From an uncultured Bacteroidales bacterium (GTDB lineage: Bacteria > Bacteroidota > Bacteroidia > Bacteroidales > Paludibacteraceae): a stretch of DNA of 64,000 nt. A program made the translations under genes and the position numbers. Position 1 is the stretch's first letter; every line of letters starts with the position of its first letter. Below, in pieces: positions 49,403 to 64,000 of the stretch. The stretch covers positions 180,225 to 244,224 of the forward strand of contig ONND01000003.1 in NCBI GenBank assembly GCA_900319105.1. The letters run 5' to 3'. The notes under the pieces are model-generated. The model was not told where the DNA came from. It ran no database searches and saw only the letters and a program-made list of their open reading frames with translations.

Positions 49403-52400
49403 TTATTTCACGCGTTTTCCTGTGGTATCGTAAATTACTCCGTTCAGCCAGATATATACCTTGTCATGGTAGATGAACTTAAACGGCTTGTCGCTGTTGA
49501 TGTCTCCGCCAGCGTTGATAGCATCTATTCCGGTCGGTGTCTGACGCTCACCCACCTTGGCATTGATAGCGAAGCGTCCGTTGATCGTACCGGCGGTGGA
49601 CGAGAAGGTATAACTCTGCTCAATCAGGTTGGTTATCTTATCGCCGTTCTGGTAGTCGATCAGGTAAACACCCTCCAACTCACCGGCTATACTTGCCTCG
49701 TGCAGCGAGAACGTATATTCTCCGTCAGCCGGAATACGCACGCTCACCGGAATCCATTCCTTCGCCAGCGTCTCGTTAATCGCCACGTATGCCATGTTCA
49801 TATCGCCGTAGCGCATGTATGTACGTAAGGTGTTTCCGTCGCTGAGCAACTTCTCAAGGTCGCCATTAATATCATAATCTGCCGTATAATGATCGCTAAC
49901 CAACAGACCCATCATATCCTCATCTTCATCGCCATTCAGAATGATATACGCTTTCTGTTTCGTCGTAAGGTTCTGTAACTCATTGTGGTAACTCGGTGCC
50001 GATGCCTTACGATTTGTCGTACCAAAGGTTAACGTACCTGTTTTCTCTGTCTGGATAAAGAATCCTCCGGCCGGTAACAGTTTTTGTCCGAGAGCACCTA
50101 CCGCATATTGATCATATTCCTTGAAGCGGATATCCGGGATATTTACGACCTCGACATCATAAGTACTGCCTGCGCTATGTGTTATCAAACCTTGATAGAT
50201 CGACATGTACGGTTGAGCAATGAAGTTCCAACCTACTGCATATCGAGGTTTTGTCATATCCTCCACACCCCATGCAGTAACTGCCACCTCGTCTTTGTGA
50301 ATTCTCGACGGTTCTTCTCCCACATAGCCCGACTCGCCGTTTGTTGTCCAGGTACCGGATGTCCATGCCCCACTCGGTAAAGTCAATGGCATACGCACGA
50401 TAGAGAACGCTTTTCCTGTCGGACGGCGGGCTGTCATTGCATAACCCACACCCGGTTCCATCGTTTCCGGCCACGGAGTGAATTCTTTCCAGTTAGCACC
50501 TTCGGCTGCACTTCCGTTCGTCCCATTCGCACGACCTTCTCCGTCGTAGTAACGCAATTTGATGACACTGCTGCTGGCGGCATTGGATGTATTCAGATAA
50601 GTAATACCTGATGTAGCCACTTTCCAAGGCACAGATACCGGATAGTACTGGTCATAATCGATGTACCAATCCGCATATACGTTCGTCGCCGTCAGCGAAC
50701 CTGCCGAAGGCGTGATATACAGCCGCGCTGCGCCATAGGCTTTCTCTCCAGCGCGTGTCCATCCGTTACGCAACATAAGGTTTGTCGTAGTTAATATACC
50801 CGTTGTTACGTTCACTGTCGCGCCCGGGTAAATCTCCAACTGTTTGATGGTTACATCGGAGAACGTACCGGCATCGGCTGTCAACGTAGCACCCGGCAAC
50901 ACGTGTACCTCTGCTTTCTCCCAATGGGCCTTCACGGCATCCACAGAAGACATCGTCTTCGTGCCTTCGATGATCCATGGGATTGGTACCATACTTACAC
51001 CCGCTACTGCACCTGATTCATTCAACCAATCGAGGTACAACAACTGATCTGCCTTCTCGTCGAAGTTAATCGCATTGCCCACGTTGATCGTAAATGCCTT
51101 CGTCGTACTACTGTTATTCACACTTGTCCGTGTCTGCGAGTACGACAACGCACCTGTTGCCGCGTCACCCACACGGGCTATCACTTCGCTGTAGCTGCCG
51201 GCATCCACTTCCATGACAAGACTATTCTTACCCCACTCTACTACACTCGCATCTTCCAGAACGGTCTCAACCGGCAGGAAATAGATCTCGCTTACCGTCG
51301 GACTGGAGTAGAAGCCGATGTTACTTCCGTACATACCCATTGTCTTGTCTTTGTATCCGCCTGTTCCGACTCTCGGGTCAAGTTTAACAGTATAAGCATT
51401 GAAGGTTTCGCTATTCAGATACCAATCTTGTACGTCTGTTCCTCCGGTAGTGGACAACCACATATTGTTATTAGCAGGGGTAGTAGATACTTGCAACCAC
51501 TGACTGCCATCACGTGTAAAGCGGACACCACTTCGGTTACGATTAGCCACTGCCGGACCATCGTAATACTGAGCGCCCTTATATAATACATTCTCCGGGG
51601 CAAACATAGCGCAAGTCGGTGTCGTTGCATTGTCCACAACGATAGGTATAGCCACTGTTGCTTTTGCCGCAGCAGCTGTGCCCGGTAAGTTATTGGGCAA
51701 GGCATACCATTGATTATCTTTCTTTATTGCCATTGCAAACTCCTCCGGCAATGTACGGCCGTACAGATCCAACAACTCCAATGTAATAGTCTTCTTTGTC
51801 GCTGAGTTATCCATCGCCTCTACCTCTAAGAGATAGTGATCCTGCGTATTGTACACACCCGCTGTCGGTTTATAAGCGATGCGGAAACTGTAGGTAGCGC
51901 TGGTCGTTCCGGCAGGAATCTCGATGTAACCACCGTCTGCATAACTACCTCCATTATCGGAAGCATTATAGATACGGAACTCACTATTAGCTATTTTCTG
52001 AGTTGACCCTTCGACACTACTACTCGTGTGCGTGTAAGTTACACCACTCACTTTATCCTTGAATCGGAAATTCAAATACTTCAGGTTTCCTACTGTCGAT
52101 TTCCAGTCATCGCTGCTAACCGTAATCAGCGATGTCGAAGGTGTCAATACCTCGCAACCGGCATAGGTCGTCAAACGAACCGTTCCGGAAACAGTTACTT
52201 CAATCTCCGGTCCGCAAGTTGTACGGTAGTTCGTGTAGCTTACATTGCTCCAACGCGCGTGTAATTCAATATTATCCGCGTACAACCATTGTTTGTTGGA
52301 GCCCGTATAACTCGTCACGTTCGGAATCCAGTTTCCATCACCGTCAATGAGTTGTGTACCCTCGCCGCTGGCGGTTGTCCAGTAGCCGCCAAACACTTTG

Positions 52401-55400
52401 TTCGTATAGGTCGGACAAGTAATCGCGCTGGTCAAGTTCGTGTTGGAGCCATAGGATACACTTACAGAAGCCGTTCCTTGCGTGGTCGCGCCCTCTTTGT
52501 TCAGCGTCACGGTATAACCGCTGGCTAACCAGTTGGCATACAGGACTTCGGTATCATCTTCACCGTTATCCCAGTCGTGCGCACTACTTCCGTCGGCAGC
52601 ATAATATTGTGTACCGCTACCATTGGTCGCCAAGTAATAACCTCCGAATTCATAACCGGACTTAGTCGGCATCGTGGCATCCGGCATCGGTAAGTTCACC
52701 GTTGCCGTCACGCTACTCGTTCCGCCGACACCACCTTGCGCGTTCAGAGTCACTGTTGTCGTATGAGCAGCTACAAACACAGCCGTTACGGTTACTGCCT
52801 CATCCGGCATAGTGAAGTGATTATCAGTAACGGTTATCTCATCGCCTCCACCGGTAGGAACAACCGTCCAGTGGTCGAAGTTATAACCGCTCGAAGTACT
52901 CGTCACACTTAACGTAACCGTTGCATCCGCACAAGCCGATGTCTTATCCACAGTAAACGAACCTCCTGTCACCGTTCCTGCCGGATCACCGTCTTTGGCG
53001 ATGTCATGTTTCTCGCAACAGCTTACACGCCATTTGGTGTAAGAAGAGAGTATCTTATATAGCGTGGGTGCTGTACTGCTGCTATAGGAACCGAATCGGT
53101 CGCTATTCCATTGCACATAATAACCAGTCGCATTAGTAATTTGGTTATACGCAATGGAAACAGCCTCTGTGGCAGAAGTCTCCAATAAATGATACTTCTG
53201 CGAGAAACCCCCTCCATTATCAGTAAGATAGTCTTGCGTTGCAACACTTTGTATCGCGTATCCGGTTGTACTGGAATTATAGGTAGCTTTAAATATCAAT
53301 CCTAAGTCAGAATTAGAAATAACACTCTCACTTGGAGATACTTCTGACAATCCATATAATCCTTCCATCACATCGCTTCGGAGAGCATATGTCTTAGTGT
53401 CTTTTGTAGCTGTAATCAAATAGTAGCCGTCCCAATCTGCGCCACTCCAGCCACTCGTATTAGAACTCGTTAACTCAGTAAAATTATATGACGTAGTCTT
53501 TATACCATATGCTCGAACAGTTCCAAAATAGAAGTTTCCTGAATTTCCGTCATAGGTAATTTTAACATTTGTCGTATTCTTGGGAACCTCAACAATATAA
53601 CTGAGTTCATTTTTTTCAGAACCATCCGTAAAGTGGTCTGAGGAATAATTACTTCCATTATCCGTAGAGTATTCTACGTGAACTTTTTCTTGTGCAGATC
53701 CACGAAGAAAGAACGTTATCATACCGCCATCGTAACTACTAAAATCCAATCCAGCTATGGTTATGTTTGGATAAGAACTAATACTATTATTAGAATAACC
53801 ATATATTTGGCTGTTAGTCATTGCTATGTTGGATGTCAAAGTGACGCTATTCAACGTACTCCCATCTTTATCCAGCGCTTTTATCGCTGTGCTTGCTGCA
53901 ATGGATTGTTTATCCCATTTGGCAATCAGGGTCGGACTTATCGCCGGCGAGCCGCTACCTGCTGCCCAAACAGCATGATAGGTAACATCCGAACCTGACA
54001 CATTCGGCAGATCACTTGCGCGACGATAGATAGTCTTTGCGCTGATATCATCCGTCGTTTCATCCCATTCGTCTCCATCGGCAATCCAGCCGTAGAATAG
54101 ATTACACTCTGTCTTATCGCAAGCATCCGTCACATCCGTCAATGTCGGAGGAACTGGCTTGGTGCCATCATATACTTTCACTTGGTCATATCCGCTCACT
54201 GCCACACCATCGTTCTTGAACGTTGCGTAGTGGAATGCACTCTCATTAAAAGAGGCAGTTACCGTTACATTAGCATCCGGCATTATAAATGTTGTGCTTG
54301 CCGAGGTGGCGGAAACAGGCGTTACCGTTCCTCCTCCCGCTTTCTCTATCGTCCAACTGTTGAACGAATAATGATCTGCTGCCGAGGCCTCAATAGTAAT
54401 AGTCGCTCCTACACATGCCGATGACTCATCTGCCGTAAATGTACCACCCGTTACTGTACCGCTTCCCGTCAAGGAAATAGTACGATGCGCATTAACGGTA
54501 ATCGCCTGACTCGTACTCTGACCACCATAACTAATACTTACCGAAGTATTGCCTGTCGTCAGAGATGTGCTGGTAGTTGGCGAGAATGTGAACTTCGCCT
54601 CATTGCCGGCATAGGGAATATCCAACGATGTACTATTCGAGAAACTGGCAGTAATAACCAATCCGGTTGGATCAAAATAGTCACCTTCACAATAAGTTGT
54701 CTTCGTAGGCGCTGTTTTTACGGTAATGCCTGTCAGCGTAGCGAAGGTAGCATTTACCGTCACGGCTTGTCCCGGCATGGTCATCGTAGCCGGATTATCT
54801 CCCGCGTGGCCTGCTCCAAGTACCGCATCGGTTACATCGGCTCCGCCAGAGGTGTTCGTTACTGTCCAACCGGCAAAAGCATAACCATCGCTTGGTGTTG
54901 CCGTTAACGTCACCGCGGCATCTTCACATGCACTTGCCACACTCGTTGCAAACGTTCCACCTGTGACTGTACCACTATTTTGCAACGTGATATCATACTG
55001 AGTACAGCAAACAGTCACATAGTCTGAGTAAGCCACGCCCTTTTGGAAGAGGCAAATACCATTATTCGTTTGATCTCCATACATTTTAAATGCACCTGCT
55101 GTCGTACTTGTGGCATATGCGCGAAGATAAAATGTACCCAAAGAACTTTTAACTTTAAATAAATAATTTGCATTAATATCACTAAATGTCCAGGCGCATG
55201 TATAATCCGAGAATGTAGGTGCCGAACCTGCAGAATTAGCATATAGGTACTTAGTGCCATCTTTGATATAATACTGATTGGCTGTTGCAGTAGCAACTAT
55301 AGATACCAGTTTTAGTCCAGTAGTTGAAGACAGTGCTAATGGAGTGCCAGATACCGTAACATTTTTAGTAGCACTATTACTCGTTCCTGCATAATAACGA

Positions 55401-58400
55401 GTACCAGAATAACTATGATAAGAGCCCAAATATGCATCTCCCTCTTTTATTCCCGAAAGACTTGTTACTATTTCAAAGTTATCGCCTTCCTCTGCTGTCG
55501 CAAACACGGCGCGGAAAGTAATATCTCCGGTGATAGCTGTTGTATTCCCGCTAACACTCGTAAACAACGTACCGGGAGCAGAATGATGGTCTTCTTTTAC
55601 CCATTCAGCATCCATAGAGTTACTCCAACCCATAAACTTGGTTGCGCAAGCACCTAATGTTGCATTGCCCGGTGCTGTCGGGATCGTAAGATCTTTCCAT
55701 TGAGCACCGCGTGCCACCTCTGTGGTCGGTCCGCCTGTCGCATAACTCATACCGCCTTTCAGCCATGTAATAGTAATCGGCTTATAGAAATTACCGCGAA
55801 CTACTACATCGTCTGTCGGCGTTCCTGTCAGGTTGCTTCCTGATAATCCCATTCCGCTGGCAGTAATGAGAGTCCAGTTGTTAAACACATAATTCGTTGA
55901 GCCGACACTTTGTGATAGTGTTCTACCGCTTGCACCAACTGTTACACTCGCGTTGGTAATCTCTGCCGGAGTCTCGTCGTATTTCTGAACAGTCACGCTG
56001 TAAACGTTAATCGTTGTGGAAGCGGTCTTGGTTATTCCGTTCTCCGTATAGCTGGCGGTAATAACCTTGCCTGTTTCCGCAGTTAAACCAACAGAGGGAC
56101 TCCATAGAGTCGATGCTGTCACTGGTTTTGTGCTTCCGTCACCCATCGTCGCGGTCACTACTGCGCCGGTACTGCTGAAACTCTCGCCTGCCAAGTAAGC
56201 GCGCGTCGTCGGTTGAGACGTAATAGCAATACTCTTCAGTTTAGCTGTCGCCGTTGCTGTAATCTCAATATTACCGGTGATAACCGCAAGGAACGTAAAG
56301 GCACCCGTAGAACTATTATAGGTATAATGTGTACCTTGGGTTAGTGTTCCTGTACCTGCCATCGTGACAGTAATACTGCTCGGCAAAAAGAAATTCTCCC
56401 CATCTACCGTGAATGTACTGTTCAATGCCGTAGTAGTCGATCCTGTGTAAGTAAACGAAGCAGGCAATCCCGCATTAGCTACATTGCTGAACGTCTTGGT
56501 AATCGTATAGGTGTTGGGGGTCCATTGAGCTGTCAGATTGATATTGCTCTGGATGTCCTTTATAGTTGCTCCATCGGAGATATCACCTCCTACGGGAATA
56601 GTACTCTCTCCCACTTTCACCGCCACATCTGCATGCCAACAATTGAAGAAATAATGCGTTTTCGAGAACGCGTTAGATGTCAGAGCTTGGTTGCTGCCGA
56701 TACAGATATTGTTGATATCGCTCATTGAACCGCTGGTATTCCCATTTCCGTTAAACGAAATGGTGTACTTGAATGCGTGCCAATTTGCATCTCTATTGGC
56801 ATTAAATTTACCCAAACTACTTGTCGTTGACAAGGCGCTTGTCTCATGGCCATAACCGCTACCACCATCATTAAACTTAATGGCATTATATGTACCGCCC
56901 ATGGCATTCAATGCCGCATAGTGGTACGTCTCGCCGCAAATAGTTGTAGTTGCCTGCATAACCGATCCCGGCCAATTGGCGGCTTTATTATCGTTGCCTG
57001 TGTTATATAGGTGTCCATAAACAGTTCCCCATACATCTGAATTTTTAAAATACACATAGTGCACATTCGGGTGAGTAACTGTAGGATAGGTTACCGTTAC
57101 GGATTTGGTAGTTGTATTGATGGCAAATGTATAAGTTCCGGCAGGACCGGTGTGAATATTACAGTTGCCGTCGGAAGTATTGAATACCCATCCGCTTGTG
57201 GTAGTAACGATGGTTCCGTTATTTTTATAAGCCGTTCCGTTATCATCAATACAGAAGTTAAAACGCGAATCTGCTGCCAGAGAAATACTATAGGAAGCCA
57301 CACCGGCATCTTCGGTCATGGTATGTTCCGTATAGCTATCTCCGCTATACTTAAATTTCCATGTTGAACCCGCATTAACCGTTACTTGAGCGGGATCCGA
57401 AGTCACAGTGGTGCTACACCCTGACGCAGCATTGGTTATGACACACTTGTAATAAGTGGTACCGGCTGATGCTGTGGATGGAGAATAAGTGCTTGACGTA
57501 CCTCCACTCGCCACATTGGAGTATGCACCGTCTATCGTCGCGCATTGCTTCCATTGATAACTCAGACTCGCACCGCCTGCCGATGCTGTCACGCTTAACG
57601 AAGGACTCGCCCCAACTACACAAGTTGTGCTTGCCGCCGGTTGAACAGATATCGTCGGCGTCAAACAAGAGAAGGTGGAGGTAATAGTAGACGAACCATT
57701 AGCGCCTTTTGAATAAGTAACCGTTCGAGTGTTTCCAGAACCGGTCACAGTGGCTGTACCCGTCGTCGGATTAGTTGCAGTGAGGTTACTCAAGTAATAT
57801 CCTGCAGTAGGTGAAGCTGTCACGGTAACAGCCTGTGCAGCACTTGTTGTTGTTACCTTTGTCACAGTAGTTTCACTCTGGGTCAAAGTAAACGTTCCAT
57901 TTGTTTGACCAGCTTTGGTAAGTTCAACTTTTGTACCTGCCGCTCCGGGTAAAGCATTCCATACTTGCACGTCATCAACACAGGCCACATAACCGCTTGT
58001 ATTCATCGCATAAACTCGGAAATATGATAAAGCAATACCAGAAAGCGTAAATGCTTTAGGGTTCTCGCCATTCATTACGCAAGTGCCATCAATGTATACA
58101 TGAGCAGTTTTAGCCGCTAAACTTATGCTGTTGCCATAAGTTGCGGGCGAGGTGGTGTTGTTGTATATGACGCAAATATCTATGTACGTATTGGATGTAT
58201 ATGAGCCTACGCTTTGCCAGTTGCCAGATGAGGTGTTTTTAGATATTTTGATAGCACCATCATTGTTTTGGATATAAACACTACCACTCGCTTTTGTGTA
58301 GGGATCTGCCGTTGCTCCGATGGAGGCTATACCAATGTACATCTTTGATGCTTTTGTAATTCTTGCTCTCCATGCACCTGTGGTTCCATATGTTTTTCCT

Positions 58401-58831
58401 GATATTGCCACGCCACAGTTATTAGTGGCTCCCATGGTAATTTTTAGAGCATTGGATCCAAACGTTGAACTCTCTATCGCATAATGGTTGTTCGCATTTC
58501 CGTTATAAACTTTATCGAATGTTCCAAAACCAGACAACGTAGATCCTGCCGCTTTAGTCGCATGTTGATCGGTTGTACTAAGACCATTGAAATTCTCATT
58601 GACAATTCTTACTGAACTTTCAGTAGAGAAGGACAAATCGGATAATGTGGGAGCAACTCCCCATGCATTCCCCACTCCGATGGACATCAATAACATACTC
58701 AAAATGAGCACTTTATGAAATAGATGTCGAGGGCAAGTAAGGGGCATCTCGAAGGCATCCCGAGGGCAATAGCGGGTTAAATCGCTCTCGCCCTGTACCG
58801 AATTACTCAATAAGAAGTTTAAGTTTCTCAT
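49403..58831 (-). CDS. Giant T9SS surface protein with switchable N terminus
   Basis: 3142 residues. The extended leader (11-bp repeat, 58727-58792) is followed by a signal peptide ending S-I-G-V-G-N-A-W-G, a first jelly-roll-like domain up to residue about 305, and the A-G-Q-T-N-G-T-F motif encoded by the inverted repeat (57890-57914). Ig-like domains, a CBM26-type starch-binding-like domain near 590 (V-H-Y-V-Y-F-K-N-S-D-V-W), InlB-type repeats (F-A-G-W-T-V near 1320; F-N-S-W-T-I near 1490), Listeria-Bacteroides repeats near 2030-2130 and a T9SS tail follow. It heads a three-gene operon. See the findings for the switch. Confidence 0.85.
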   Translation of the reverse strand: MRNLNFLLSNSVQGESDLTRYCPRDAFEMPLTCPRHLFHKVLILSMLLMSIGVGNAWGVAPTLSDLSFSTESSVRIVNENFNGLSTTDQHATKAAGSTLSGFGTFDKVYNGNANNHYAIESSTFGSNALKITMGATNNCGVAISGKTYGTTGAWRARITKASKMYIGIASIGATADPYTKASGSVYIQNNDGAIKISKNTSSGNWQSVGSYTSNTYIDICVIYNNTTSPATYGNSISLAAKTAHVYIDGTCVMNGENPKAFTLSGIALSYFRVYAMNTSGYVACVDDVQVWNALPGAAGTKVELTKAGQTNGTFTLTQSETTVTKVTTTSAAQAVTVTASPTAGYYLSNLTATNPTTGTATVTGSGNTRTVTYSKGANGSSTITSTFSCLTPTISVQPAASTTCVVGASPSLSVTASAGGASLSYQWKQCATIDGAYSNVASGGTSSTYSPSTASAGTTYYKCVITNAASGCSTTVTSDPAQVTVNAGSTWKFKYSGDSYTEHTMTEDAGVASYSISLAADSRFNFCIDDNGTAYKNNGTIVTTTSGWVFNTSDGNCNIHTGPAGTYTFAINTTTKSVTVTYPTVTHPNVHYVYFKNSDVWGTVYGHLYNTGNDNKAANWPGSVMQATTTICGETYHYAALNAMGGTYNAIKFNDGGSGYGHETSALSTTSSLGKFNANRDANWHAFKYTISFNGNGNTSGSMSDINNICIGSNQALTSNAFSKTHYFFNCWHADVAVKVGESTIPVGGDISDGATIKDIQSNINLTAQWTPNTYTITKTFSNVANAGLPASFTYTGSTTTALNSTFTVDGENFFLPSSITVTMAGTGTLTQGTHYTYNSSTGAFTFLAVITGNIEITATATAKLKSIAITSQPTTRAYLAGESFSSTGAVVTATMGDGSTKPVTASTLWSPSVGLTAETGKVITASYTENGITKTASTTINVYSVTVQKYDETPAEITNASVTVGASGRTLSQSVGSTNYVFNNWTLITASGMGLSGSNLTGTPTDDVVVRGNFYKPITITWLKGGMSYATGGPTTEVARGAQWKDLTIPTAPGNATLGACATKFMGWSNSMDAEWVKEDHHSAPGTLFTSVSGNTTAITGDITFRAVFATAEEGDNFEIVTSLSGIKEGDAYLGSYHSYSGTRYYAGTSNSATKNVTVSGTPLALSSTTGLKLVSIVATATANQYYIKDGTKYLYANSAGSAPTFSDYTCAWTFSDINANYLFKVKSSLGTFYLRAYATSTTAGAFKMYGDQTNNGICLFQKGVAYSDYVTVCCTQYDITLQNSGTVTGGTFATSVASACEDAAVTLTATPSDGYAFAGWTVTNTSGGADVTDAVLGAGHAGDNPATMTMPGQAVTVNATFATLTGITVKTAPTKTTYCEGDYFDPTGLVITASFSNSTSLDIPYAGNEAKFTFSPTTSTSLTTGNTSVSISYGGQSTSQAITVNAHRTISLTGSGTVTGGTFTADESSACVGATITIEASAADHYSFNSWTIEKAGGGTVTPVSATSASTTFIMPDANVTVTASFNESAFHYATFKNDGVAVSGYDQVKVYDGTKPVPPTLTDVTDACDKTECNLFYGWIADGDEWDETTDDISAKTIYRRASDLPNVSGSDVTYHAVWAAGSGSPAISPTLIAKWDKQSIAASTAIKALDKDGSTLNSVTLTSNIAMTNSQIYGYSNNSISSYPNITIAGLDFSSYDGGMITFFLRGSAQEKVHVEYSTDNGSNYSSDHFTDGSEKNELSYIVEVPKNTTNVKITYDGNSGNFYFGTVRAYGIKTTSYNFTELTSSNTSGWSGADWDGYYLITATKDTKTYALRSDVMEGLYGLSEVSPSESVISNSDLGLIFKATYNSSTTGYAIQSVATQDYLTDNGGGFSQKYHLLETSATEAVSIAYNQITNATGYYVQWNSDRFGSYSSSTAPTLYKILSSYTKWRVSCCEKHDIAKDGDPAGTVTGGSFTVDKTSACADATVTLSVTSTSSGYNFDHWTVVPTGGGDEITVTDNHFTMPDEAVTVTAVFVAAHTTTVTLNAQGGVGGTSSVTATVNLPMPDATMPTKSGYEFGGYYLATNGSGTQYYAADGSSAHDWDNGEDDTEVLYANWLASGYTVTLNKEGATTQGTASVSVSYGSNTNLTSAITCPTYTNKVFGGYWTTASGEGTQLIDGDGNWIPNVTSYTGSNKQWLYADNIELHARWSNVSYTNYRTTCGPEIEVTVSGTVRLTTYAGCEVLTPSTSLITVSSDDWKSTVGNLKYLNFRFKDKVSGVTYTHTSSSVEGSTQKIANSEFRIYNASDNGGSYADGGYIEIPAGTTSATYSFRIAYKPTAGVYNTQDHYLLEVEAMDNSATKKTITLELLDLYGRTLPEEFAMAIKKDNQWYALPNNLPGTAAAAKATVAIPIVVDNATTPTCAMFAPENVLYKGAQYYDGPAVANRNRSGVRFTRDGSQWLQVSTTPANNNMWLSTTGGTDVQDWYLNSETFNAYTVKLDPRVGTGGYKDKTMGMYGSNIGFYSSPTVSEIYFLPVETVLEDASVVEWGKNSLVMEVDAGSYSEVIARVGDAATGALSYSQTRTSVNNSSTTKAFTINVGNAINFDEKADQLLYLDWLNESGAVAGVSMVPIPWIIEGTKTMSSVDAVKAHWEKAEVHVLPGATLTADAGTFSDVTIKQLEIYPGATVNVTTGILTTTNLMLRNGWTRAGEKAYGAARLYITPSAGSLTATNVYADWYIDYDQYYPVSVPWKVATSGITYLNTSNAASSSVIKLRYYDGEGRANGTNGSAAEGANWKEFTPWPETMEPGVGYAMTARRPTGKAFSIVRMPLTLPSGAWTSGTWTTNGESGYVGEEPSRIHKDEVAVTAWGVEDMTKPRYAVGWNFIAQPYMSIYQGLITHSAGSTYDVEVVNIPDIRFKEYDQYAVGALGQKLLPAGGFFIQTEKTGTLTFGTTNRKASAPSYHNELQNLTTKQKAYIILNGDEDEDMMGLLVSDHYTADYDINGDLEKLLSDGNTLRTYMRYGDMNMAYVAINETLAKEWIPVSVRIPADGEYTFSLHEASIAGELEGVYLIDYQNGDKITNLIEQSYTFSSTAGTINGRFAINAKVGERQTPTGIDAINAGGDINSDKPFKFIYHDKVYIWLNGVIYDTTGKRVK
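57890..57914 (-). repeat. 25-bp inverted repeat, left copy (in the giant gene)
   Basis: On the minus strand the copy contains GGTCAAACAAATGGAACGTT. It is identical over 25 bp to the plus-strand copy at 59603-59627. Sequences on either side differ. In both genes it codes for A-G-Q-T-N-G-T-F in the same frame. It is a candidate recombination site for DNA inversion. Confidence 0.85.
58727..58792. repeat. 11-bp tandem repeat (6 degenerate copies) in the leader of the giant gene
   Basis: Units TCGAGGGCAAG, TAAGGGGCATC, TCGAAGGCATC, CCGAGGGCAAT, AGCGGGTTAAA, TCGCTCTCGCC. It codes for the extra residues V-Q-G-E-S-D-L-T-R-Y ... that the related gene at 59770 lacks in front of L-F-H-K-V. Confidence 0.75.
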
Positions 58832-58988
58832 ATCATTTAGTTATTTATATTCGTATTTTCAATTTGCAATCACAGGCTCCGTTAAGAGCCGGTAACTATA
58901 GGATGAAACTGATATAATAACAAGCGATATGATAAGCAATAATTCGTTATCAAAATCAATGTGTGCGTCATACTTACAGAGTAGTAAC
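58832..58988. promoter_or_regulatory. Divergent upstream region of the two alternative N termini
   Basis: 157 bp between the start of the giant gene (minus) and that of the silent cassette (plus). It is AT-rich and must hold any promoter, which would move with the invertible segment. I cannot pick a confident -33/-7 pair; TCATACTTACAG (58967-58978) is the best guess for the plus side. The plus-strand frame is open from 58929. Confidence 0.35.
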
Positions 58989-59669
58989 ATGAGCCATGAC
59001 CATCGTTCGACCATCGTTCGACCGTCGTTCGACTGTCGTTCTAAACTGCTAAAAATCGTTACCGTTTTGGCACTCCTGCTAACCGTTGGAGTTGGGAATG
59101 TGTGTGGAACGGATGTTACATTAACAGAGTCAGAAATCAAGGCAAATCTCACAAAAGATGCACATGCCTATGGCGCTGGAGCAAAGTCTTTTGAGGATGG
59201 CACGGTTACATGGTATTTAGGCGATTTTACCTGTACAGCAAGTAGTAAATGGTTCCAAATAAAAAAAGATGCCGGTTGTTATCTTAAAATCACTTCGCCT
59301 ACAGGAACTAAAATCACGGAACTTTCTTTAACAATTACATCTGCTTCGAACTCTAAAGGAGGTGCACAAGATATTCCTATGCACACAGCCTATAGTGGCA
59401 GAATCGCGTTATTAACAGCTGATGCCGCAGGTTCTGCCTCCATGACCGGTGTCGGTTACACAGAAGAAATCTCAAGCAACACAGCATCTATATCCGCATC
59501 AGGTACAAACAATGTACTTTATCTGAAAACTCAGAATGCTGCACGAATCTGGGGGGCGACTGTAACATATGTTTCATCTGGTACATCCGTATCCCTTTCC
59601 ACAGCTGGTCAAACAAATGGAACGTTTTTATGGAGCAAGGGAAAGTCGCTCTTTAGAACCTTCATTTAG
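58989..59669 (+). CDS. Silent alternative N-terminal cassette of the giant surface gene
   Basis: 226 residues from M-S-H-D-H-R-S. An 11-bp repeat leader (58998-59041), a signal peptide ending V-G-V-G-N-V-C-G and a single domain of about 165 residues (T-L-T-E-S-E-I-K-A-N ... L-K-T-Q-N-A-A-R-I-W-G-A) lead to G-T-S-V-S-L-S-T-A-G-Q-T-N-G-T-F. Here the 25-bp inverted repeat ends and only L-W-S-K-G-K-S-L-F-R-T-F-I-stop follows. The giant gene has the same order with a different first domain. The frame is open from 58929. It reads as a cassette without a body, not as a complete protein. Confidence 0.75.
   Translation: MSHDHRSTIVRPSFDCRSKLLKIVTVLALLLTVGVGNVCGTDVTLTESEIKANLTKDAHAYGAGAKSFEDGTVTWYLGDFTCTASSKWFQIKKDAGCYLKITSPTGTKITELSLTITSASNSKGGAQDIPMHTAYSGRIALLTADAAGSASMTGVGYTEEISSNTASISASGTNNVLYLKTQNAARIWGATVTYVSSGTSVSLSTAGQTNGTFLWSKGKSLFRTFI
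58998..59041. repeat. 11-bp tandem repeat (4 copies) in the leader of the silent cassette
   Basis: GACCATCGTTC twice, GACCGTCGTTC, GACTGTCGTTC: nearly perfect. It codes for D-H-R-S-T-I-V-R-P-S-F-D-C-R-S just before the signal peptide. Confidence 0.9.
59603..59627 (+). repeat. 25-bp inverted repeat, right copy (in the silent cassette)
   Basis: Identical to the reverse complement of 57890-57914. The distance between the copies is about 1.7 kb and the two N termini point outwards from the centre. Confidence 0.85.
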
Positions 59670-59681
59670 TTATTATATCAG

Positions 59682-59698
59682 TATTTCAAAGATCGTTT
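59682..59698. repeat. Short copy of the end of the invertase gene
   Basis: TATTTCAAAGATCGTTT, also at 63539-63555; its core TCAAAGATCGTTT is the 3' end (N-D-L-stop) of the serine recombinase gene at 61201. After it come nested hairpin arms (GGGCTTT/AAAGCCC, 59706-59748). It marks an old rearrangement end. Confidence 0.6.
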
Positions 59699-59769: not shown

Positions 59770-61065
59770 TTACGGCTGTTCATCCGCAAACACCGCATAG
59801 AAAGTCTTATTCTCATTTGTTATGGGCGCTGTTACTTTAAATAACGGAGAGGGTTGACCACTACTACCGATTATCTCATGATCAGTCCATCCCATAAACG
59901 CATCTCCACAAGCATCTGATACTGTCGGCGCAGTAGGAAGAGGAGAAGGGCGATTGCCCGCCAATACAGATGTCGCAGGGCTTCCATGCTCTGCACCTTC
60001 CCATAACTCACCGTTCACATACCAATGTACAGTATATTCAGCAATAGTAAACGTATACGATGTACTCTTTACGCTCGCCTCATCACACGCGTTGAATGCC
60101 TGCAACTCAACTCGGTACTCTGCATTGGTCGTCAAACCAGTTGCATTATAGGTCGTCCCACTCATTACGTAGTCGCTGCAGATAGTGACACCTGTAGAAT
60201 TGTTTTTTACATCTATTGCATAGTACGATGCATCGCTTACCGCATCCCATGTGATTGTAGCAGTAGTATTGGAAGTGACTGCCGCATTGATATTCCCCGG
60301 CGTAGCTGACTTAATATCATCAATACAAAAATTTCCGCCATTAGTATAATCACTATTGCAATAATCTTCACCATCACCTATAGCACGCACCTTCCACCAA
60401 TATTCACCATTGGATAAATTCGAACGCAAGCCACCGGTGTAAGTAGCTGACTTCGATAGGTTAGAAACGCACGTTCCTGCATCGCCTACCAAACCATAAC
60501 ATATTTCTTGATTCGTTGCATTCGTCGTAGTTCCAGAACCGGGAGTCCATGAGAAACGGACATAGATATTTCCTGCACTTTCGTAATTTGTGTTTACACT
60601 TAAGCCCGAAGGAGCGACAAGCGTATTCTCGCATCCATACACATTATATGACGGCTTTGTTGTCCAATACACATCGTAGTCTCCGGCATCATCCGCCTGA
60701 CAGTAATATACGGCATACAACGTGGTCGCTGCTCCGCTATATGTGGCATTAGGCCAAGCATATTGTCCATAGTAGTCTGCACCGGAATTATTTGGATGAA
60801 CAATGTCTGTTTGCTCTCCAGGCGCCCATGCCACAACGGAATAAAAGGCATAGCCATCTCCCAACATCGGCCCATCTCCAGGCTTGTTCCCTGTTTCAAA
60901 AGTGCCATACGTGTAGTATGCACTCGTACTATGATTCCATACTTTCAAAGTAACCGTCGTTCCTAAAACATTCCCAATTCCGACAATCATCAGCAACATG
61001 CACAAAACAAGCACCTTTCGAAACAGATGCAAGGGATTACCAAACAAAAAGTTAATGTTTCTCAT
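59770..61065 (-). CDS. Truncated surface protein with fibronectin III and InlB-type domains
   Basis: 431 residues from M-R-N-I-N-F-L-F. The leader and signal peptide (L-F-R-K-V-L-V-L-C-M-L-L-M-I-V-G-I-G-N-V-L-G) match the giant protein's, without the 11-bp insert. Residues about 140-250 and 255-345 are FnIII-type domains (S-G-L-S-V-N ... I-Y-V-R-F-S-W-T; T-A-T-I-T-W-D-A-V). The end is an InlB-like repeat cut off at F-Y-A-V-F-A-D-E-Q-P. There is no T9SS tail, which relatives have, so it has lost its 3' end. It converges with the silent cassette. The frame is open to 61092. Confidence 0.7.
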   Translation of the reverse strand: MRNINFLFGNPLHLFRKVLVLCMLLMIVGIGNVLGTTVTLKVWNHSTSAYYTYGTFETGNKPGDGPMLGDGYAFYSVVAWAPGEQTDIVHPNNSGADYYGQYAWPNATYSGAATTLYAVYYCQADDAGDYDVYWTTKPSYNVYGCENTLVAPSGLSVNTNYESAGNIYVRFSWTPGSGTTTNATNQEICYGLVGDAGTCVSNLSKSATYTGGLRSNLSNGEYWWKVRAIGDGEDYCNSDYTNGGNFCIDDIKSATPGNINAAVTSNTTATITWDAVSDASYYAIDVKNNSTGVTICSDYVMSGTTYNATGLTTNAEYRVELQAFNACDEASVKSTSYTFTIAEYTVHWYVNGELWEGAEHGSPATSVLAGNRPSPLPTAPTVSDACGDAFMGWTDHEIIGSSGQPSPLFKVTAPITNENKTFYAVFADEQP

Positions 61066-61200
61066 ATCTTTGTTGTTGTTTATTTCTCTCATTTTTCTTC
61101 TTCCGGCCTATTCCGTTTTTGATTACTTTTACTTAGTAAAAAACTCAAATTGCGGTCCAACCATTAATTTTGGCACAACCAATTTAAGTTTTTCGCTACA

Positions 61201-61803
61201 TCAAAGATCGTTTTGGAGAATATATCTTCTTAATGTGTTGCGGCTGCAATGGAGGCTGTCGGCGATGCTTCGCTTGGAGCGACCGGATTGCAACGCTTTG
61301 CGGATATATTCTTCTTTCCGATATAACTGATTTAATTCTTTCTTTGTGCGGCTTCCTTTCGGACGCCCGATGCGTTTTCCTTCGGCTTTGAGTCTCGCCA
61401 AGGCCTCGCGGGTGCGCTGGCTGATCAGATTGCGCTCAATCTCCGCCGATATACCAAAAGCGAACGCTAACACTTTGGATTGTATGTCATCGCCCAAACG
61501 GTAAGCATCTTTGATCGTCCACACTTGACATCCGCGACGCATACAATAACTCAGGATCTCCATGATCATGTAGAGGCTTCGTCCCAAACGACTTAACTCA
61601 CTACAAATGATCAAATCCCCTTTCTTTACATGCCGCAGCAGTTTTCCCAATTGACGTTTCGAATAAGGTTTAGTTCCCGATACCGTCTCTTCTATCCATC
61701 CATCTATCTGCACCCCCTCACGAAGGCAAAACTGCTGAATTTCAAACCGTTGGTTCTCTACTGTTTGCTTGTCGCTACTTACGCGAATATAACCGTATTT
61801 CAT
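61201..61803 (-). CDS. Mpi-like serine DNA invertase
   Basis: 200 residues. The resolvase/invertase domain has Y-I-R-V-S-S (catalytic Ser9 region), T-V-E-N-Q-R-F-E-I, G-D-L-I-I-C-S-E-L-S-R-L-G-R-S and the long E helix K-V-L-A-F-A-F-G-I-S-A-E-I-E-R-N-L-I-S-Q-R-T-R-E-A-L-A. The helix-turn-helix is R-S-K-R-S-I-A-D-S-L-H-C-S-R-N-T-L-R-R-Y. From memory this wording is close to Mpi of Bacteroides fragilis, which flips many promoters. It has its own promoter. A broken copy lies at 63539-63617. Confidence 0.88.
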   Translation of the reverse strand: MKYGYIRVSSDKQTVENQRFEIQQFCLREGVQIDGWIEETVSGTKPYSKRQLGKLLRHVKKGDLIICSELSRLGRSLYMIMEILSYCMRRGCQVWTIKDAYRLGDDIQSKVLAFAFGISAEIERNLISQRTREALARLKAEGKRIGRPKGSRTKKELNQLYRKEEYIRKALQSGRSKRSIADSLHCSRNTLRRYILQNDL

Positions 61804-61849: not shown

Positions 61850-62076
61850 AAAAAGCGCTACAAAGGTACAACAATTTTTTGACATATGCAAGATATAAAG
61901 CATTTTTTTTTAAATTGTCTATTCTATTGAGCAAAAAACACATTCATACCGATATATAGAATATTTTTCATCCTTCCAATCGGCAGAATAGAATATACTA
62001 AAGGGTAGCCCGAAGGAGCAGATGAACGTCCGTACGAGTAGGAATTTTCGAGGATTGTGCGGCATACTTGGACTTG
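61850..62076. repeat. Direct repeat of about 227 bp, copy 1
   Basis: Matches 63773-64000 with a few changes in the AT-rich left part and none visible in the last 80 bp. It holds the invertase promoter and part of a small ORF. Copy 2 runs off the window, so the repeat is longer. Confidence 0.85.
61861..61891 (-). promoter_or_regulatory. Promoter of the serine invertase
   Basis: TTG (61889-61891), 20 bp, TACCTTTG (61861-61868). The same promoter is present in the repeat copy (from 63784), where no intact invertase gene follows. Confidence 0.7.
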
Positions 62077-62284: not shown

Positions 62285-63406
62285 CTACTCTAAACTGCGC
62301 AGCCAAATTGCCATAAAGCGGTCGTAAACAATGTAACCTCCATCAGTGGGATAGAGATATTCATCTTCTACCAAACTGGCTAATGCCCGTTGCACACTGC
62401 TCGCAGACCGAAGATGGTGTTTTTTGACAAACTCACCGGAGGTCGGTTGTTTAACCCCTCCCTCTGACGCAACCGCCCGTAGTAAGATAGCCTGCACTTG
62501 TGTCAAATGGTGGTATTGCTTCTTGTAATCATCCTCCTCGGAACGGATGATAGTGACGAGAGTCTGCTGTACTACTGCTTCTGTCACCTCCACATCCGAT
62601 AACCGGAATAGACGATGCAAAATGGCTTGTATATACCACGTAACACCATCTGCTAATTCATAGATCTGATGAAATATTTCCTTTGAAAGCCGTACCTTTT
62701 TCTGATCCAGAAAGCGGCAAGCAAAGGCATAATATTTATCTTCATCTAATGAACCGAGATGCATTCGTTCCGTGCTACGGTAGAAAGGATGCTTTGGAGA
62801 AGAGAACATCACATCCATTACATGTTGTTTGCTTCCCGAAAAGATAATATGCACATTATGAATTCGTTCCAATAACGATCGTAAGACGGCTTCTACATTA
62901 TCCTCCGGATACTCTCCTATTTGCTGGAACTCATCCATCGCAATATAGCATTCCACTTTGGATTGAGCTATATAGGCAAAAATCTCTTCCAACGTATGTT
63001 GCGCATTTTGCGGAACAAAGGACAAACTCATCTGAGGCAGGTTGGTGTAAGGATCCACCCCGAAAGTCAATTGAGTACTGCGGAAGAACTTCGTTACAAA
63101 ACCTTCCGCTTTTTGAACAGGAGTGTCCAGTTGCCCGATAACCGCCTTGCCTAACAATGTGACAAAATCAGTTAATGAGCGCGTAGGATACAAGTCAATG
63201 TAGAAACATCGGAATTCATTATTATGTTCCTTTATATAATGGAACGTATGGTGAATCAATCCCGATTTACCCATTCGACGAGGGCTAACCAACGTTATAT
63301 TGGCACCATTGCGCATGGATTCCATTAACTGCTGCGTTTCTTCCTCGCGATCGCAGAAATACTCCGGTCCCTCATAGCCATACAAAAGAAAAGGATTTTC
63401 AATCAT
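62285..63406 (-). CDS. Archaeal-type AAA ATPase, unknown role
   Basis: 373 residues. It starts N-P-F-L-L-Y-G-Y and has C-D-R-E-E-E-T. The Walker A motif is S-P-R-R-M-G-K-S-G, Walker B Y-I-A-M-D-E-F-Q, and sensor 1 I-I-F-S-G-S-K-Q-H. A C-terminal winged-helix (A-S-S-V-Q-R-A-L-A-S-L-V-E-D-E-Y-L-Y) ends it. The family (Arch_ATPase, PF01637-like) is related to STAND ATPases; the role is unknown. It lies between the two invertase-locus repeats. A run of overlapping palindromes separates the promoter from the start codon, so expression is likely controlled. Confidence 0.8.
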   Translation of the reverse strand: MIENPFLLYGYEGPEYFCDREEETQQLMESMRNGANITLVSPRRMGKSGLIHHTFHYIKEHNNEFRCFYIDLYPTRSLTDFVTLLGKAVIGQLDTPVQKAEGFVTKFFRSTQLTFGVDPYTNLPQMSLSFVPQNAQHTLEEIFAYIAQSKVECYIAMDEFQQIGEYPEDNVEAVLRSLLERIHNVHIIFSGSKQHVMDVMFSSPKHPFYRSTERMHLGSLDEDKYYAFACRFLDQKKVRLSKEIFHQIYELADGVTWYIQAILHRLFRLSDVEVTEAVVQQTLVTIIRSEEDDYKKQYHHLTQVQAILLRAVASEGGVKQPTSGEFVKKHHLRSASSVQRALASLVEDEYLYPTDGGYIVYDRFMAIWLRSLE

Positions 63407-63538: not shown

Positions 63539-63648
63539 TATTTCAAAGATCGTTTTGTAAGCATCTTTAATCGTCCACACCTGACATCCGCGACGCATAC
63601 AATAACTCAGGATCTCCAAGGTAAACCTATTTCTAGTATTACCTCTTC
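63539..63648 (-). pseudogene. Remains of a second serine invertase gene
   Basis: Three pieces of the invertase gene and its leader are joined: its 3' end (as 61201-61214), the codons matching 61501-61560 (63557-63617) and the leader from 61820 (63620-63648). Two internal deletions of about 285 and 260 bp explain it. The middle piece differs from the intact gene at only two or three bases. Confidence 0.75.
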
Positions 63649-63772: not shown

Positions 63773-64000
63773 AAAAAGCGCTACAAAGGTACAACAATTT
63801 TTTGACATATGCAAGATATAAAGCATTTTTTTTAAAATTGCCTATTCTACTAAGCAAAAAGCACATTCTTACCGACATATAGAATATTTTTCATCCTTCC
63901 AAATCGGCAGAATAGAATATACTAAAGGGTAGCCCGAAGGAGCAGATGAACGTCCGTACGAGTAGGAATTTTCGAGGATTGTGCGGCATACTTGGACTTG
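63773..64000. repeat. Direct repeat, copy 2 (runs off the window)
   Basis: Copy of 61850-62076 in the same orientation. Recombination between the two copies would delete the invertase promoter region, the small ORF and the AAA ATPase gene (about 1.9 kb). Confidence 0.85.

Follow-up and report, generated by a model that had tools for sequence, protein, structure and literature searches.

A predicted Mpi-type DNA inversion switch for the front end of a giant secreted protein in a Paludibacteraceae bacterium

Whether a giant secreted protein can exchange its outermost domain through the turning round of a DNA segment is the question raised by a locus of an uncultured Bacteroidales bacterium of the family Paludibacteraceae (assembly GCA_900319105.1), of which a stretch of 64,000 nucleotides (contig ONND01000003.1, positions 180,225 to 244,224 of the forward strand; hereafter, the window) was analyzed. 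A preliminary description, made from the letters of this DNA, had proposed that two divergent N-terminal modules, each comprising a leader, a signal peptide and a first domain, end in a perfect inverted repeat and that inversion of the segment between the repeats would exchange the N-terminus of a protein of 3142 amino acids (aa). In-frame inversion, an adjoining Mpi-family invertase, recurrence of the layout and inverted order among relatives all argue for this interpretation, and we put the probability of a two-state Mpi-type DNA inversion switch by which the giant protein changes its front end at roughly 0.86.

The two arms that bound the inner segment (Table 1) lie exactly where they had been described and are identical, in inverted orientation, in 25 of 25 bases. 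Identity stops abruptly at their edges, as claimed earlier, given that only 18 of 60 adjacent bases match outside the arms and 24 of 60 inside. Within 3 mismatches, the arm occurs in the window at just these two sites, and at none in 100 shuffles of the window. The genome of the same organism (2.26 Mb, 91% complete) was searched for further sites with a 21-bp part of the arm at up to 3 mismatches and contains only this pair, so that no genome-wide promoter-flipping Mpi regulon is apparent at this threshold, at which more diverged sites are missed. Both arms encode A-G-Q-T-N-G-T-F, in the same frame in the open reading frame (ORF) of the giant and in the 246-aa ORF of module B; past this motif the giant continues for about 2830 codons (about 2800 in the preliminary description) and the plus-strand ORF for 13. 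When the segment is inverted in silico, the constant body is open from the start of module B; the resulting gene of 3061 aa, with the junction ...SLSTAGQTNGTFTLTQ..., carries the leader, signal peptide and first domain of module B ahead of the body, and module A, now silent, is left as an ORF of 327 aa. The in-frame joining that had been foreseen is thus confirmed by script.

The modules had been called only distantly alike upstream of the repeat; they do differ, and even this wording is if anything too strong, there being no blastp match between modules A and B at E 1e-4 over at least 40 aa. In a Pfam scan of ten module stretches, module A gave a weak match to Laminin_G_3 (E 0.068, under the cut-off) and module B gave none. 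Among the genomes of relatives (designated by G numbers; L numbers designate the DNA stretches examined), a domain like that of module A is the first domain of proteins in G080, G001, G026 and G158, in frames of 847-4685 aa, and a domain like that of module B lies inside the giants of G179 and G084. The two domains are matched in 5 and 3 of the 178 genomes, respectively, own genome included in both counts. Since both occur in proteins of relatives, they are domains that such surface proteins use.

A candidate for the switch enzyme is encoded 1.6 kb from the right arm, by a gene that the preliminary description did not mention. Its product matches the NCBIfam model NF009949, “master DNA invertase Mpi family serine-type recombinase”, with 303.7 bits against a curated cut-off of 272, which is the single match to this model in the genome, and carries the Pfam domain Resolvase (PF00239, E 1.6e-34). 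By sequence, it aligns to the solved DNA-invertase chains 4m6f and 3uj3, which we take to be Gin, and the alignment places its serine 9 on serine 9 of chain 4m6f. The published Mpi site is given as ARACGTTCGTN in the accessible part of PMC8375218, and the window arm starts with AAACGTTCCAT, agreeing with 8 of the 10 defined positions, namely the first 8 (ARACGTTC). Although the ARACGTTC-type 8-mer itself is not rare, with 5 occurrences in the window against 4.67 expected by chance, the match carries weight because it is placed at the edge of the arm. The arms of relatives have only a looser core in common. We presume that this invertase catalyzes the inversion at these arms.

In the proposed mechanism, the invertase would bind the two 25-bp arms, cut both and rejoin the ends with the segment turned round. 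The segment carries two complete front ends, each with a start, leader, signal peptide and first domain, that point apart; the left-facing one runs on without a break into the constant body, and the right-facing one ends 13 codons past the arm motif. A flip would then replace the outermost domain of a secreted protein of about 3100 aa (3142 versus 3061 aa) and keep its expression, with both states presumably expressed in turn. The tip is probably exposed, and its change would be expected to alter binding, antigenicity or phage sensitivity.

Table 1. Features of the predicted inversion locus in the window
Feature	Position	Strand	Remarks
Giant secreted protein, 3142 aa, assembled orientation	49403..58831	-	Pfam Flg_new_2, Flg_new, Big_3, CBM26
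Constant body of the giant	49403..57889	-	joined to whichever module faces the body
Left recombination arm	57890..57914	-	inside giant gene; + strand reading begins AAACGTTC
Inner segment, predicted invertible	57915..59602	.	two divergent leader/signal peptide/first-domain modules and inter-start region
Module A, attached in the assembly	57915..58831	-	leader, signal peptide (by eye), first domain
Inter-start region, 97 bp	58832..58928	.	between divergent starts; promoters presumed
Module B, silent side, 246-aa ORF	58929..59669	+	leader, signal peptide (by eye), one domain; ends 13 codons past arm motif
Right recombination arm, silent side	59603..59627	+	perfect inverted copy of left arm
32-bp element	59663..59694	-	32/32 identical to G088 element (L101 9628-9659); between silent arm and Mpi
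Mpi-family serine DNA invertase, 200 aa, presumed switch enzyme	61201..61803	-	NCBIfam NF009949, Pfam Resolvase

The preliminary description had suggested aligning related genomes to look for both orientations, and two pairs of relatives show an inverted inner segment between flanks that run in the same direction, an outcome in favor of its interpretation. G015 and G030 have the same giant (71.6% over 1580 aa) in the same neighborhood, and 16 of the 18 blastn matches between them run in the same direction (75-97% identical, some displaced); the two inverted matches both fall within the segment. The module beginning TDPVTIYSETFGS, which is 97% identical between the two genomes (510/524, with 494 bp at 98% inside the arms), is joined to the body of the giant in G030, whereas in G015 it stands on the silent side. 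Beyond the silent arm, the two genomes share an outer flank (277 bp, 97.5%) although the modules next to it differ, and the similarity ends at the arm. The other module of this pair is alike over only its first ~38 bases, and it follows that modules are also replaced over time. G030 carries two Mpi copies. In the second pair, G163 and G032, leader-region blocks of 360 and 237 bp are inverted between same-direction flanks. When 12 loci were compared (the nine of the automatic scan described below together with G015, G030 and G178, the bounds of G030 and G178 being set by hand), DNA of the inner segment was common to 16 of the 66 pairs; relative to the giant gene, it was inverted only in 9 pairs, in the same direction only in 5 and mixed in 2. 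The window contributes one short inverted match, of 56 bp, to G088. A comparison of all loci gave at least 104 pairs with blocks in both directions, few of which were examined further.

The layout recurs within the genus. NF009949 is matched in 73 of the 101 genus genomes searched, in 63 of them above the cut-off, and 104 of the 178 genomes have a match to the window invertase at E 1e-75 or better. A scan of 80 Mpi-centered stretches (79 from relatives and the window) for pairs of divergent ORFs that read an inverted repeat in one and the same frame returned 12, of which three were dropped: L073, with long paralogous receptor-like gene pairs, L086, with simple repeats, and L128, with 17 bp repeated 17 kb apart. 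All nine loci kept (window, G079, G022, G088, G163, G021, G099, G032 and G170) come from the 24 stretches with an Mpi that shares 76% identity or more with the window invertase, and the remaining 56 stretches include the three dropped; the 76% line was drawn after the scan. The arm sequences of the recurring loci differ from those of the window. Counted from where the matched block begins, the short ORF of eight of these loci ends after 8-75 codons; G021 is the exception, with two long partners. The same filter returned nothing from 11 stretches around other leader matches in the own genome and those of relatives (195 kb). G015 has an exact 22-bp arm pair and a silent module that is frameshifted just before the arm.

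Several observations weigh against a working switch of this kind. Flipping was not seen in the window's own species, of which one strain only was available, and the frameshifted silent module of G015 is unusable as it stands. The automatic scan did not find the layout in 15 of the 24 stretches with a close Mpi; at least four of these 15 (G034, G200, G162 and G171) are cut by a contig end within ~300 bp of Mpi. In G200 and G162, arm-like sequence runs up to the contig end, which could stem from mixed orientations, but looking for this end sequence in the two genomes brought up no partner contig that shares it; in G034 and G171, the contig breaks off close to Mpi and shows no such sequence at its end. 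The arms of L087, L115 and the second L113 locus match in just 16 of 22 positions, a level equaled in 11 of 20 shuffles (made of L087 only) and hence not significant. Several of the inverted matches between relatives span just 36-110 bp, and leaders occur repeatedly in the genomes, so that such matches could be paralogous; for this reason, only the pairs G015/G030 and G163/G032 are taken as strong. Applied to named Mpi stretches from several genera (the 80 best), the filter gave six outputs, namely four contigs already counted, the 17-bp match dropped before and one set of paralogous receptor-like genes; these add no new case, and no example was found outside the genus. Two weak tests were also negative: the exact arm had 0 matches in genome_contigs, a set possibly without the own genome, and the inverted junction had 0 matches in viral_contigs.

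The alternatives to the inversion switch are not all mutually exclusive, and their odds do not sum to one. The one that survives best, unlikely as it is, holds that the segment is mainly an ON/OFF switch in which one front end has a working promoter, a possibility that is compatible with domain exchange. As far as the accessible parts of PMC4747536 and PMC8375218 go, known Mpi targets are largely promoters. It is plausible that one or more promoters lie between the two starts of the window locus; no promoter motif was found for either start, the exact TAnnTTTG being absent from both strands of 58701-59000, and the frameshifted module of G015 would give an OFF state. Both modules, on the other hand, have their own start, leader and domain, and the leader region turns together with the domain. 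Furthermore, one module is silent in G015 and on the giant in G030, hence such modules are used.

Somewhat less probable still is an evolutionary leftover, in which module B would be the dead fragment of a past inversion or duplication and the switch would no longer work here. The stop 13 codons past the arm, the frameshift in the silent module of G015 and the lack of observed live flipping would fit such a decay, as would the distance of Mpi, which lies 1.6 kb off with another ORF between, versus about 140-210 bp from the silent arm in G022, G163 and G032. Against it stand the perfection of both window arms, a module B that is open and in frame, and a complete invertase ORF with its serine 9 aligned with that of solved DNA invertases.

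It is improbable that the segment inverts through another recombinase or through homologous recombination between the arms. The presumed link between enzyme and arms rests on sequence; however, 25 bp is short for homologous recombination, the adjacency of Mpi recurs across species and the arm starts with the Mpi consensus. Least probable is that these are ordinary neighboring genes sharing a domain-edge motif (NGTF/NGSV), with the repeat due to protein conservation or local gene conversion: the arms of several loci do encode a similar N-G-[TS]-[FV] stretch, but all 25 bases are identical with identity lost immediately on both sides, the arms of L099 and L090 are exact although their peptides differ (GGSTKTL and GGSPEPT), Mpi-linked repeats with a similar core lie in methyltransferase-like genes on the other strand (L071 and L075), and the inner segments inverted between species largely refute it. 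A protein-motif origin of the repeat was accordingly rejected on the exact 25 bp, the abrupt edges and the other peptides in relatives. Because the repeats beside Mpi in G074 and G096 fall within methyltransferase-like genes (by eye) that are read on the opposite strand, the shared site core is not a protein motif.

The preliminary description had further called the giant a surface protein of the type IX secretion system (T9SS). The T9SS protein SprA is indeed present in the genome (TIGR04189, 2668 bits), but a recognized C-terminal sorting domain was not found in the giant, which matches no sorting-domain family in Pfam and NCBIfam at E 0.001. By eye, the end of the giant resembles those of adjacent secreted proteins. 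The giant is therefore a likely but unproven T9SS cargo, a status that SprA supports indirectly.

A broader reading of the inversion switch can be offered tentatively, namely that Mpi and the silent dock form a genus-wide machine for N-terminal exchange, with which a species would carry one displayed and one hidden tip for its giant surface protein. The hidden position would be freer from selection and would acquire new tips, so that inversion would not only act as a switch but also bring in new binding domains. This is suggested because G015 and G030 have one module at 98% and a partner that is unrelated beyond the leader.

The surroundings of the locus hold further features. Sequences like GATCTTTGACATAATG, similar to the 32-bp element, follow Mpi in several relatives. 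Between the silent arm and the invertase, a 440-aa protein of secreted type, with an fn3 domain and a leader like that of the giant, is encoded at 59770-61092 (minus strand); the ORF looks like a later insertion or duplication, and its product may be a third front end or such an insertion. An AAA-type ATPase gene (62285-63406) and a 62-bp piece of the invertase gene (63557-63618) lie between near-identical direct repeats (95-100%) at 61850-62076 and 63773-64000 of the window. The second repeat is cut by the end of the contig, and the end sequence occurs in the genome of the organism in these two copies only.

Other Mpi-linked repeats were seen among the relatives. At L071 1615-2428 and L075 1114-1868, inverted repeats beside Mpi are read in the same frame in both copies, in the methyltransferase-like genes (by eye), as if Mpi also swapped parts of modification enzymes. 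A block of ~255 bp beside Mpi, 96% identical between close species, is inverted between L136 (2127-2380) and L140 (9281-9535), like a small invertible promoter. In L073 (6107-14065, G062), Mpi is flanked by two receptor-like genes (by eye) of more than 1100 aa that mirror each other and share long inverted identity; they may form a whole-gene switch. In L233 (8316-11739, G162), a 34-bp inverted repeat with a core like that of Mpi arms bounds a 3.4-kb segment; this pair was found in G162 with 2 mismatches to the contig-end sequence, there is no Mpi in the 20-kb stretch, and the segment may be a mobile element or a remote site.

The predicted switch can be set beside several known systems. Like Gin of phage Mu and Hin of Salmonella, the window enzyme is a small serine invertase; Gin exchanges C-terminal parts of tail-fibre proteins, whereas here the N-terminal part with the start would be exchanged and the body would stay fixed. 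Omp1 of Dichelobacter nodosus, an outer-membrane protein, reportedly undergoes phase and antigenic variation through a site-specific inversion, in a different phylum and with a different type of protein. Within-gene inversions, said to have been described by Chanin et al. in 2024, are alike in that an inversion endpoint inside a gene changes the protein; the present locus differs in having two complete front ends, a local invertase and occurrence in several species. In the name of Tsr-type shufflons, Tsr stands for tyrosine recombinase, and the recombinase adjoining the window locus is, by Pfam and NCBIfam, of the serine type and not of the tyrosine type. The Tsr0667 SusC/SusD shufflon of B. 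fragilis is similar in that it involves multiple inversions at outer-membrane protein gene clusters, according to the accessible part of PMC4747536; it uses several sites, whereas here there would be a serine invertase and two sites. Inversions in Bacteroidales include promoters, larger segments and within-gene inversions, as stated in the accessible part of a 2025 review (PMC12632263).

The accessible literature, mostly without subscription papers, describes no Mpi-type N-terminal exchange of a giant surface protein and no such system in Paludibacteraceae, and we rate N-terminal domain exchange instead of promoter flipping as a new aspect of Mpi-type inversion. The relatives in the genus are metagenome-assembled genomes named Paludibacteraceae or Bacteroidales, mostly from the ruminant gut, and the locus provides a test case for the diversification of surface display, phage entry or attachment in such bacteria. 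It may also account for the short silent adhesin-like gene fragments beside Mpi genes. The closest comparison is with the master DNA invertase Mpi of B. fragilis: the window enzyme belongs to the same serine recombinase family and its arm begins with ARACGTTC, whereas here a single pair of sites, close to the enzyme gene, is embedded in coding sequence and inversion would alter protein domains, the enzyme family appearing to alter the tip of a giant surface protein with the body unchanged.
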